Source: Verrucomicrobiota bacterium
GTDB lineage: Bacteria; Verrucomicrobiota; Verrucomicrobiia; Chthoniobacterales; UBA10450
NCBI GenBank assembly: GCA_003218305.1
Contig: QHMY01000041.1
Coordinates: 1-47,843 of the forward strand
DNA length: 47,843 bases
Direction: 5' to 3'
Position numbers and translations under genes: made by a program. The number at the start of each line of letters is the position of its first letter. The stretch's first letter is position 1. Under the pieces are notes generated by a model, which did no database searches, had not been told where the DNA came from, and was given only the letters and a program-made list of their open reading frames with translations. Shown one piece after another: positions 3,262 through 35,000 of this stretch.

Positions 3262-4671
3262 ATGAATCTTTCGTTATTTCTATTCCTCGCCTTTGGCCCC
3301 ATGGCTGAAGCGATTTCGGAGCATTGGGATCCATTCGGTCTGATCCTGCTCAAGCTGGGCGCCATCGCAGCTCTGGTGGTGGCGAACGGCTTTTTCGTCG
3401 CGGCCGAGTTCGCCCTGGTCAAGGTGCGCGGCAGTCAGCTGGATGCGTTGGAAACGGAGGGAAACCGGCGCGCGGGCGTTGCGCGGCAGGTCATTTCGAA
3501 CCTGGATGCATATCTCTCCGCCTGTCAGCTCGGAATTACCTTGGCCAGCCTGGGCCTGGGATGGGTCGGCGAACCATTTCTGGCGCGAATGCTCCAGCCG
3601 TTTTTCAAGCTGGCGTCGATCGAATCGCCGGCTGTGATCCAGGCGACTTCGTTCGTCCTCGCGTTTTTCACCATTACATTCCTTCACATCGTTCTCGGCG
3701 AACAGGCGCCGAAAATCCTCGCGATCCGAAAAGCCCTCGGCACCTCCATGGCGATCAGCCCGCCATTGCGTTGGTTCTATTTTTTGTTCCGCCCGGCGAT
3801 CTGGTTCCTGAACGCTTCCTCCAACTGGGTCTTGAAGCATCTCTTCCGGATTGATCCGGTGACGGAAGGCGAAGTCTCGCACAGCGAAGAAGAGCTCCGG
3901 CTCATTCTCGACCAGAGCGAGAAGTCCGACGAAGTCTCTTCTCTCGGTCGCGATCTACTCGTGAATATTCTCGACCTTCGCGAGCGGGTCGTGCGCGATA
4001 TCATGACACCGCGCGGCGAAGTCGTTTTTCTCGATATGGAACAGAGCTTCGAGGAGAACGCGAAGAAAGCCTTCGAGTCGCGGCACACCAGATTCCCGCT
4101 TTGCCGCGGGCATCTCGACGACACGATCGGCCTGATCCACATCAAGGAGTTGGCGCCCATGATGCGCGATCCGCAGCCCGACCTGCTCCGGATTAAGCGG
4201 GACCTGATTCCCGTGCCGGAGATGCTGTCGCTCGAAAAATTGCTCAACCTCTTCCTGGCGAAACACGCCCATCTCGCCATCGTCGTGGACGAGTATGGGG
4301 GCACGGTCGGAATGGTGACGCTGGAGAATGTTCTCGAGGAAATCGTCGGCGACATCCAGGACGAGTTCGACACCGAGAAGGCTGAGTTTCGCAAGATCAA
4401 CGACAATGAGTTTTCCATTGATGGCGCGGTGGGGCTGTACGAGCTGCAGGACCTCGCTGGCCTGGAATTGGAGAGCGCCGATGTGAGCACGATCGGCGGT
4501 TACGTGACGCACCTGCTCGGTCATCTTCCCAAGCAGGGCGAACAGGTCAGGATCGAAAATTACCTGGTTACCATTTCCCAAACGGACGGCCGGCGGGTGG
4601 GCCAGTTGCATTTCCGGAAATTGAGCGACGCAGAAATGGAAAAGGCGCCGAAGTCGGACGCCGCGGTATAA
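3262..4671 (+). CDS. Hemolysin/CorC-CNNM family protein (DUF21 + CBS pair + CorC_HlyC)
   Basis: 469 aa; DUF21-like N-terminus ([24 protein letters not shown]), CBS signature ([45 protein letters not shown]). Confidence 0.93.
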
Positions 4672-14315: not shown

Positions 14316-14382
14316 TCAGTTTGAAAACTCCTGGAGACCCCTAGTCGTATTGGTCTCCCTGTTCGCTGAAAATAGCCCAGCG
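14316..14382. repeat. 67-bp dispersed repeat (partner of 2817-2883)
   Basis: TCAGTTTGAAAACTCCTGGAGACC...CGCTGAAAATAGCCCAGCG; about 88% identity to the reverse complement of 2817-2883. Confidence 0.8.
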
Positions 14383-14538
14383 TTTTAACGCTGGGAAAAT
14401 CGGTTAATCAAGAGATCGAGTCCCGTTAGGGACGACAGGAGCGCCAGGAAAGAGAACCGCTTCTGCCGTCCCTAATGGGACTTCGGACTCTGTTACGATC
14501 AAAACCAGGGTTAAAACCCTGGGCTATTTTCAGAAGCG
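14364..14538. repeat. Nested inverted-repeat (cruciform/MITE-like) element
   Basis: Outer arms CGCTGAAAATAGCCCAGCGTTTTAACGCTGGG (14364-14395) and CCAGGGTTAAAACCCTGGGCTATTTTCAGAAGCG (14505-14538); inner arms 14418-14438 and 14463-14490 around GTCCCGTTAGGGAC / GTCCCTAATGGGAC. Confidence 0.75.
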
Positions 14539-18024: not shown

Positions 18025-18978
18025 TCATCTACGTTCGGCCTGGCTTTGGACTAGCTGGATGGCGTCGCGGAATTGGAGGGGGGCGACGATGTTGGCGAAC
18101 GATTCGGCGGAGCCGCCGGTGCCGCGAATCTCGACCGTGCCGTAATTGAAGAATCGGCCCAGCATTCCCTGGGACACGGCGACGGATTCGATCCTCGAAA
18201 TGAACATCTCGAAGGTCTGGCGCCGCACGAACCCGACCTTAATCAAAACGCGCCGATCGGTGATGACCAGCTCGCTCGTTTTAACGCTGAGCACCGCGGA
18301 CGTAATGATCGCGACCGGAATGACCAGGAGCAGCCAGACCCATGATTGGTCTTTCCAGGAAGAGATCAGCGCAATCGGCGCGATCAGGATGAGCGTGAAG
18401 ATGGCGGCAAGAATCGGCACGATAAGGACGATCCAGTGAATCGTGGTTTTGTGCAGAGGGCGTTCGTCCGCCTGCAAGGTTGCGGCGGTGTAGGGGCCGA
18501 CAGATTTGGAATCGAGGACGGGGAGGGGGGACGGCGGAGGAGGCGGGGGCGGGGACGGAGAGGATGGAGGATTAAGGATAGAGGATGGAGAAGGGAGAGA
18601 AGAAGCGGGCGGAGCCGGAGACGTTGAAGACGAGGAGGATGGAGGATTGAGGGTGGAGGATGGAGAAGGCGGAGCTGTGAGAGACGGAGAGGATGGAGGG
18701 TTGAGGATGGAGGATGGCGAAGACAAAGGCGGAGAGGATGGAGGATTGAAGGTGGAAGGCGGCGGGACCGGCGAAGGCGGGGTGGAAGACTCCTGGGGAA
18801 AGGTTGGCCGGGAAGCGCTGGCGAATTGGGGGAAGGTGGAGAGCGGCGCCCAAGTGGAGGCGCCTTCGTGCCAGGCCAGGTCGGAAGGGTCGATCGCGCC
18901 GGAAAGGAGGCGATTGCGCACCTCGGATTCGGAGTAAGGCCCGATCGGGCGGCCGTGATGGTGGATGAGAAACTCCAT
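18025..18978 (-). CDS. GYF_2 (DUF4339) domain + P/S-rich repeat linker + PH-like (bPH) membrane protein
   Basis: 317 aa; N-term 'MEFLIHHHGRPIGPYSESEVRNRLLSGAIDPSDLAWHEGASTWAPLSTF'; C-term 'SELVITDRRVLIKVGFVRRQTFEMFISRIESVAVSQGMLGRFFNYGTVEIRGTGG' is a bacterial PH pattern. Confidence 0.88.
   Translation of the reverse strand: MEFLIHHHGRPIGPYSESEVRNRLLSGAIDPSDLAWHEGASTWAPLSTFPQFASASRPTFPQESSTPPSPVPPPSTFNPPSSPPLSSPSSILNPPSSPSLTAPPSPSSTLNPPSSSSSTSPAPPASSLPSPSSILNPPSSPSPPPPPPPSPLPVLDSKSVGPYTAATLQADERPLHKTTIHWIVLIVPILAAIFTLILIAPIALISSWKDQSWVWLLLVIPVAIITSAVLSVKTSELVITDRRVLIKVGFVRRQTFEMFISRIESVAVSQGMLGRFFNYGTVEIRGTGGSAESFANIVAPLQFRDAIQLVQSQAERR
18540..18770. repeat. Degenerate minisatellite encoding the P/S-rich linker
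   Basis: Repeated GAGGATGGAGGATTGAGG(G/A)TGGAGGATGG units, encoding (S)SILNPPSSPS-like peptides on the minus strand. Confidence 0.8.
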
Positions 18979-18992
18979 GAAGGGTTAATGTG

Positions 18993-19076
18993 ATCAGTAA
19001 TCAGTAATCAGTAATCAGTAATCAGTAATCAGTAATCAGTAATCAGTAATCGGTAATCGGTAATCGGTAATCGGTG
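18993..19076. repeat. Heptanucleotide tandem repeat, 12 units
   Basis: 8x ATCAGTA (18993-19048), 3x ATCGGTA (19049-19069), 1x ATCGGTG (19070-19076). Confidence 0.97.
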
Positions 19077-19170
19077 GTCAGTCATCGCTTAGCCGTCAGT
19101 CCTCGGTCGTCGTTTGCTCGATCCGCATTGCGCCTGAGTCGGTGAAACGGTAAACAGCGACCGGGCTTAC

Positions 19171-23760: not shown

Positions 23761-23926
23761 CTGTCATCCCGAGCCGCGCAGACGGCGAGGGGCCTCCCAG
23801 CTAGTCGAGCCATCACCCAATTCGGAACAACCGCCATGTCGGTGACGGTGTTGCACGTCCGAAGGTTGAAGACGAGTAATATCCTGCTGCGGGGTCCTTC
23901 GCCGTCTTCGCGGCTCGGGATGACAA
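23761..23926. mobile_element. Short inverted-repeat (MITE-like) element, copy B
   Basis: Ends TGTCATCCCGAGCCGCGCAGACGGCGAGGGGCC... / ...GGTCCTTCGCCGTCTTCGCGGCTCGGGATGACA; internal GTGACGGTGTTGCACGTCCGAAGGTTGAA shared with copy C. Confidence 0.85.
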
Positions 23927-25246: not shown

Positions 25247-25411
25247 TGTCATCCCGAGCCGCGCAGACGGCGAGGGACCTCACAATTACTCGGATGGTCA
25301 CTCAAGCCAGAACAAGCGTCACTACTGTGACGGCGTTGTTCGTCCGAAGGTTGAAAAACGCGACAAGTGCCACTGGGAGGTCCCTCTCCGTCTGCGCGGC
25401 TCGGGATGACA
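25247..25411. mobile_element. Short inverted-repeat (MITE-like) element, copy C
   Basis: Ends TGTCATCCCGAGCCGCGCAGACGGCGAGGGACCTC / GAGGTCCCTCTCCGTCTGCGCGGCTCGGGATGACA; internal GTGACGGCGTTGTTCGTCCGAAGGTTGAA. Confidence 0.88.
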
Positions 25412-31179: not shown

Positions 31180-31218
31180 GGTCGTCGCGCTTCGGACCAG
31201 ATGGCGCAACGAACGACT

Positions 31219-31596
31219 TGTCATCCCGAGCCGCGCAGACGGCGAGGGACCTCACCCACCGCGATCGAACAGCTCTTGCCCCAAATCTTTCCACAGCGGA
31301 TTCAGCGTCCGCACCAGCGCAGTTTTCTTTTCACACCGCCAACCCTTGATCACCTTCTCCCGCGTGATGGTATCGCGAATGTCGCGGTAGTCTTCGTAGT
31401 AAACGAGACGGTTCAGCTTGTACTGCTTCGTGAAACCCTTAACGGTCCCGGTCTTGTGCTCCCAAACTCGGCGCTGTGAGATCTTTGGTCACGCCGGTGT
31501 ACAACACGACTCGACTGCGATTGGTCATCATATAAACGAAGAACGTCTTCATTCCATTGGTGGGGTCCCTCGCCGTCTGCGCGGCTCGGGATGACA
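31219..31596. mobile_element. Inverted-repeat element (copy D) enclosing a GIY-YIG nuclease gene
   Basis: 38-bp ends (31219-31256 and 31559-31596) are inverted repeats with one mismatch and have the same sequence as the MITE-like copies A-C. Confidence 0.8.
31252..31552 (-). pseudogene. GIY-YIG (COG2827-like) nuclease, one-base frameshift
   Basis: MKTFFVYMMTNRSRVVLYTGVTKDLT (31552-31475), one extra base at about 31474, then RRVWEHKTGTVKGFTKQYKLNRLVYYEDYRDIRDTITREKVIKGWRCEKKTALVRTLNPLWKDLGQELFDRGG* ending at 31252. Confidence 0.82.
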
Positions 31597-31610
31597 CGCT
31601 TCTCTACGCT

Positions 31611-34815: not shown

Positions 34816-35000
34816 GCGCTGTCATCCCGAGCCGCGCAGACGGCGAGGGACCTCTCAGTCGTGGCACACGTCACACAAATGACATGACGCGCTCCACGCC
34901 GAAGGCGCCGCCTTGTATCGCGATAGCGATTTACCCGCCTGTGAGGTCGGCGCTCCTCCCGGGTCGCGATCCCGGTCTGCGCGGCTCGGGATGACAGCGC
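34816..35000. mobile_element. Short inverted-repeat (MITE-like) element, copy E
   Basis: Perfect 26-bp inverted repeat: GCGCTGTCATCCCGAGCCGCGCAGAC (34816-34841) and GTCTGCGCGGCTCGGGATGACAGCGC (34975-35000). Confidence 0.88.

Follow-up and report, generated by a model that had tools for sequence, protein, structure and literature searches.

A widespread mobile unit with tagged REP palindromes around a stand-alone GIY-YIG nuclease, the probable dedicated partner of CGTC/TGTC REPs

The window analyzed here is the whole stretch of 47,843 nucleotides (contig C194; the assembly comprises 3.6 Mb in 285 contigs). At 31219-31596, it holds a gene for a GIY-YIG nuclease between inverted repeats, and the question raised by this locus is whether gene and repeats travel together as one mobile unit or were brought together by chance. 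The locus is probably a defective representative of a class of mobile elements with a very wide distribution.

The unit (31219-31596, unstranded) is homologous to C169:3548-3924 in the same genome and to G023:C76:6623-7000, with the same limits. Its terminal repeats are REP palindromes with outward TGTC tags, located at 31219-31256 (left, plus strand) and 31559-31596 (right, minus strand). The two inverted arms are 38 nt each and 97% complementary, and a PF01541 GIY-YIG gene (51.8 bits vs the cut-off of 22.6) is the sole gene between them; the original prediction had likewise placed a GIY-YIG ORF between 38-bp inverted repeats. The gene occupies 31252-31552 on the minus strand, and its stop codon, TGA at 31252-31254, was confirmed to be supplied by the left repeat. 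When the intact sister copy on contig C169 was used as the reference, the window nuclease matched it with 81% identity in two pieces (C169 copy numbering): residues 1-27 at 31472-31552 and residues 25-98 at 31258-31479. The pieces are in different frames and the window gene is thus frameshifted; this copy is probably dead.

The end sequence was matched nine times in the window (up to 3 mismatches) and never in 100 shuffles. The same ends had been predicted to bound at least four short non-coding elements, and the four listed were recovered: A (1769-1935), B (23762-23925), C (25247-25411), and E (34820-34997, with a more diverged right end), all unstranded. Genome-wide, a 33-nt version of the end gave 114 matches (56 forward and 58 reverse), and the reversed-pattern control gave none. 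From the fetched regions, 44 complete end pairs were assembled, with element E additional to them. The length was 116-194 bp in 42 pairs, mostly 155-158 bp, and 377 and 378 bp in the other two. These two, the only pairs longer than 200 bp, both hold nuclease genes, which are the only GIY-YIG genes of the clade in this genome; the third PF01541 match is UvrC-like. The sister gene (C169:3584-3880) is enclosed by matching ends, C169:3548-3580 on one side and 3892-3924 on the other, and codes for an intact protein of 99 aa; the homology between the window and C169 units runs from end to end and stops there. The outer flanks of the elements showed only a preference for G/C at positions -2 and -3.

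The 42 short elements had a mean identity of 68%, and no similarity to the interior of the nuclease unit was detected inside their ends. As the interiors are unshared, the short elements are companions with common ends and not deletion derivatives of the present nuclease copies. The idea that the nuclease-bearing copy mobilizes the short copies as its derivatives was therefore kept in part: that the ends and the nuclease belong to one mobile unit is strongly supported, but an origin of the ~156-bp elements by internal deletion of present nuclease copies was rejected, only the ends being common. As for the copy involved, the one in the window is frameshifted and the intact one is at C169. Repeats of other kinds were also noticed in this material. 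The tandem 7-bp unit GTAATCA, drifting to GTAATCG, was seen at 18976-19101 of the window, and a DNA-polymerase-like ORF (L001, 1795-3210, minus strand) contains in frame SRHPERSEAKSRDP...GPSTSLGMTA, a stretch resembling the translation of a repeat from another family.

Empty sites in relatives, proposed as a check in the original prediction, were found. The orthologous ku-ykgJ spacers of G023, G024, and G025 are without the nuclease unit, and G023 carries, elsewhere, an element that matches window 31219-31596 exactly end to end. Element B was absent at the orthologous sites of G023, G021, and G025, and element C at that of G023; element E was absent at the G023 site, and a related element is present there in G021. 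With relatives of ~80% identity and an intergenic site, the comparison clearly establishes the absence but not the precise boundary, and neither a target-site duplication nor an exact junction was readable in the window's lineage. A short element of the same repeat family was observed in G020 (L241, contig C35), in the spacer orthologous to window 31180-31610 (ku-ykgJ).

In Azospirillum lipoferum 4B, the unit is located between sufB and sufC, and it is missing in three congeners of about 94% identity. Next to the unit of Shinella PSBB067 (L263), the upstream flank resembles the end of the same gene as in the A. lipoferum sufB-sufC spacer (L253), an indication of two insertion events in that spacer. 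The DNA match between the nuclease units of S. meliloti and Shinella is confined to the unit. Up to 11 nuclease matches per genome were counted (G228, for which the comparison set was one other genome in the genus, 78% identical); presence was patchy, and some copies were broken. In Sinorhizobium C101 and Sphingobium TYG64 and TYG74, the unit is missing and one palindrome with tags on both sides remains. The TYG64 palindrome, CGTCACCCCGGG-TCAAG-CCCGGGGTGACG, is identical to a fusion of the left REP's outer half with the right REP. Doubly tagged palindromes were otherwise almost absent (strict search of about 1.27 Mb of fetched loci); they fit a scar of excision or slippage, and they could also be an insertion target. 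No REP was found at the unit-free site of Sphingobium TYG72, and the same applied to one or more empty sites in Azospirillum. Judged from these genome comparisons, the unit evidently moves whole, from end to end.

The terminal REPs differ in detail between lineages. In the window, the tag is TGTC, the stem begins with AT and is longer than 8-9 bp, and the loop has 6 nt. Tandem G-A mismatches interrupt the hairpin, and its folding energy does not stand out (z about -1). The REPs of Alphaproteobacteria form a perfect hairpin of 8-9 bp that starts with AT and has a loop of 4-5 nt. The unpaired tail is CT in the window type and CCA in Alphaproteobacteria, and the window REP is on this account a related type rather than a typical member of the CGTC superfamily. 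Of 117 parsed loci, nearly all had the tag [CT]GTC; Sinorhizobium C101 has CCTC. Stem sequences vary, but base pairing is retained: complementarity at the first two positions of the variable middle was seen in 54% of 166 distinct middles, compared to 20% after shuffling (maximum 27%). Between REP type and nuclease sequence, the Mantel correlation was 0.39 overall, which is significant, with none between phyla, and co-evolution of the two is consequently not claimed.

Whether GIY-YIG homologs are generally flanked by such ends was examined in a set that included 80 named nuclease loci from many phyla; in the window's family, 60 of the 83 genomes had a nuclease match. The motif [CT]GTCATYYYGA was present, pointing outward, on both sides of 51/110 nuclease loci; among 1244 random windows drawn from these loci, there was no such case. 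A strict hairpin-only REP detector overlooked the tandem G-A type and was superseded by a detector combining motif and hairpin, which was applied to four sets with a 250-bp range; since the two locus sets overlap in assemblies, counts were also made by distinct protein. A REP in some orientation within 250 bp was detected at 139/152 clade loci vs 77/389 other ORFs of the same loci, and outward REPs on both sides at 75/152 vs 2/389 (Fisher 4e-46). By distinct protein, 125 of 136 clade members had a TGTC/CGTC-tagged REP within 250 bp, which favors the predicted link, and the remaining 11 had no detectable REP in that range. Other single-domain GIY-YIG genes, most of them from the same genomes, served as the control, and 1 of 19 was REP-flanked. 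When 158 distinct proteins were placed in a tree, a branch with SH-aLRT 95 separated these controls from the clade; the inner order of the tree is weak due to an alignment of only 95 columns. The association with REPs is thus specific to one nuclease clade.

The REP-nuclease arrangement was seen in relatives from more than 10 phyla. The 2013 survey of CGTC REPs (PMC3733652) lists S. meliloti, N. aromaticivorans, A. lipoferum, and Neisseria; in these, the nuclease was located next to such REPs or enclosed by them, and the arrangement is likewise present in Planktothrix, Spirosoma, Shinella, and Sphingobium. The active-site residues Y7, Y18, R28, H32, and E65 were 99-100% conserved in 155 sequences, and the C-terminal Asn (N84) was kept at 99%. 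Two Rhizobium plasmid loci (L257 and L258) encode proteins of 38-39% identity and have no clear CGTC REP by eye, while a loose detector scored every plasmid locus positive in some orientation. Phage matches to the nuclease reached 35-44% identity only. Outside the REP clade, a UPF0213-like GIY-YIG gene (L341, G194:C269:24100-27400) was observed with a REP-like hairpin on both sides; it may represent a second GIY-YIG clade associated with a different family of palindromes.

In two lineages, REPs are more abundant where the nuclease is present. For the window's family, a positive correlation was obtained between REP density and the number of nuclease copies (Spearman 0.47, p = 8e-6; within-genus permutation p = 0.016). 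Among 192 Alphaproteobacteria, the clade is present in 20 of the 21 genomes with at least 10 REP matches, compared to 37 of the 171 others (p = 3e-11; the REP pattern was limited to a single stem type, and genomes related to each other are not wholly independent samples). Abundance of the repeats in genomes lacking the nuclease had been named as evidence against the link: the repeats are mostly rarer there, with exceptions such as G021 (97% complete, 146 REPs, clade nuclease absent). G211 is also REP-rich without a clade nuclease.

We consider it probable that the locus represents a REPtron-like mobile unit in which tagged REPs surround an unrelated GIY-YIG enzyme, and that the clade is the dedicated partner of CGTC/TGTC REPs. 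The plan of such a unit would be two outward-tagged REP palindromes around a stand-alone GIY-YIG nuclease of ~95 aa, and the ~156-bp REPIN/MITE-like elements, having the ends of the nuclease unit, would be its non-autonomous companions. We infer that the nuclease acts catalytically on REPs and brings about the mobilization. It would recognize the tagged REP hairpin, as a single strand or a cruciform, and cut there or close by; the replication or repair machinery of the host would then copy or move the DNA between two tagged hairpins. With somewhat less confidence, we suggest that CGTC/TGTC REPs and REPIN-like pairs across bacteria are spread by this stand-alone nuclease and have neither a transposase nor a recombinase nor a reverse transcriptase of their own. 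If true, this would be a mobility mechanism not described before and would explain the spread of CGTC REPs.

The REP-based proposal was weighed against four other explanations. Chance insertion of a gene into a repeat, the alternative put forward with the original prediction, could account for a single locus; it is refuted, to the point of having practically no weight, by the two of two clade genes between such ends in the own genome and by the counts of 75/152 vs 2/389 elsewhere. The most serious competitor, though an unlikely one, is that the REPs spread by other means and a free-standing GIY-YIG homing endonuclease exploits them as plentiful, safe places for its gene, cutting them and being copied into them. 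GIY-YIG enzymes do include known homing endonucleases (PMC1564403), and two empty sites hold a single doubly tagged palindrome, a possible target. Such a parasite would be expected to leave half of one target on either side, but each flank is a complete REP in inverted orientation, and some empty sites (Azospirillum and Sphingobium TYG72) are REP-free. REP abundance also climbs with the nuclease, which is not in itself required of a pure REP parasite.

It is very improbable that the nuclease serves the cell by resolving REP hairpins or cruciforms, regulated by REPs or acting on them in housekeeping and no mobility enzyme, even if branched DNA is cleaved by GIY-YIG enzymes with structure specificity, Slx1 among them (PMC6902002), and protection of REP-rich genomes would likewise yield the abundance correlation. 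A housekeeping gene need not lie between inverted substrates, and the patchy presence, the up to 11 matches per genome, the broken copies, and the fact that the unit travels with its ends and without the flanking genes all speak against this role. We give hardly more than a slight chance to the nuclease being the passenger of a RAYT (HUH) or other transposase that moves these REPs. RAYTs move or are associated with other REP families (PMC2817692, PMC3116915), and the own genome has four Y1 transposase genes. However, no Y1_Tnp transposase is present between the ends; the Y1 genes are located elsewhere, none of the four is near a TGTCAT motif, and each is flanked by a different palindrome. Di Nocera et al. 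(PMC3733652) found no transposase flanked by CGTC REPs, and a passenger would not be one and the same nuclease clade across more than 10 phyla. Another inverted pair in the window, CTGAAAATAGCCCAGCGTTTTAACGCTGG at 14366-14394 and 14505-14533, has an arm that recurs beside a RAYT-like Y1 transposase at another place in the genome (L165); it is probably a RAYT-linked REP pair of a different family.

The CGTC superfamily occurs in many bacterial phyla and includes Neisseria dRS3, which is equated with CGTC-1, and Rickettsia RPE-4 and RPE-6 (PMC3733652). The survey that described it stated that CGTC REPs "apparently lack a dedicated transposase" and did not mention GIY-YIG proteins (Di Nocera, De Gregorio and Rocco 2013, PMC3733652). 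The nuclease is likely the missing mobility enzyme of this repeat family, which in 2013 was reported without one. A dedicated nuclease partner would answer the closing question of that survey, what mobilizes CGTC REPs, and would add a transposase-free kind of mobile element. A decade-old question would become a simple biochemical and genetic test, and a function is suggested for the many genes that now go only by the name "GIY-YIG nuclease family protein". Open-access full text yielded no paper that connects GIY-YIG proteins with REP, REPIN, RAYT, or dRS3; an earlier description elsewhere is possible.

Compared with known systems, the unit resembles the CGTC superfamily in the unpaired [CT]GTC tag, the stem starting with AT, the short loop and tail, the inverted dimers, and the occurrence in many phyla, whereas in the window type the stem is longer and contains tandem G-A mismatches, and the tail is CT instead of CCA; a GIY-YIG nuclease is linked here to REPs for which the 2013 survey had no dedicated enzyme. 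The REPtron of RAYTs and REPINs (PMC2817692, PMC3116915) shares the enzyme gene between inverted REPs and the scattered short non-autonomous REP pairs, but RAYT is an HUH tyrosine enzyme working with GTAG REPs, and here a GIY-YIG enzyme goes with a TGTC/CGTC tag. UPF0213 and prokaryotic Slx1-like proteins (PDB 1zg2 and 1ywl; phmmer E 2e-4 and 0.016) have the same minimal single-domain GIY-YIG fold; the REP-linked proteins, in contrast, form a separate clade that keeps the C-terminal Asn, and such controls were REP-flanked in 1/19 cases. GIY-YIG homing endonucleases of the I-TevI type and Penelope-like elements are likewise selfish and use a GIY-YIG nuclease for mobility, as is proposed here, but the present unit has no intron, NUMOD DNA-binding domain, or reverse transcriptase, and is limited by complete inverted REPs.
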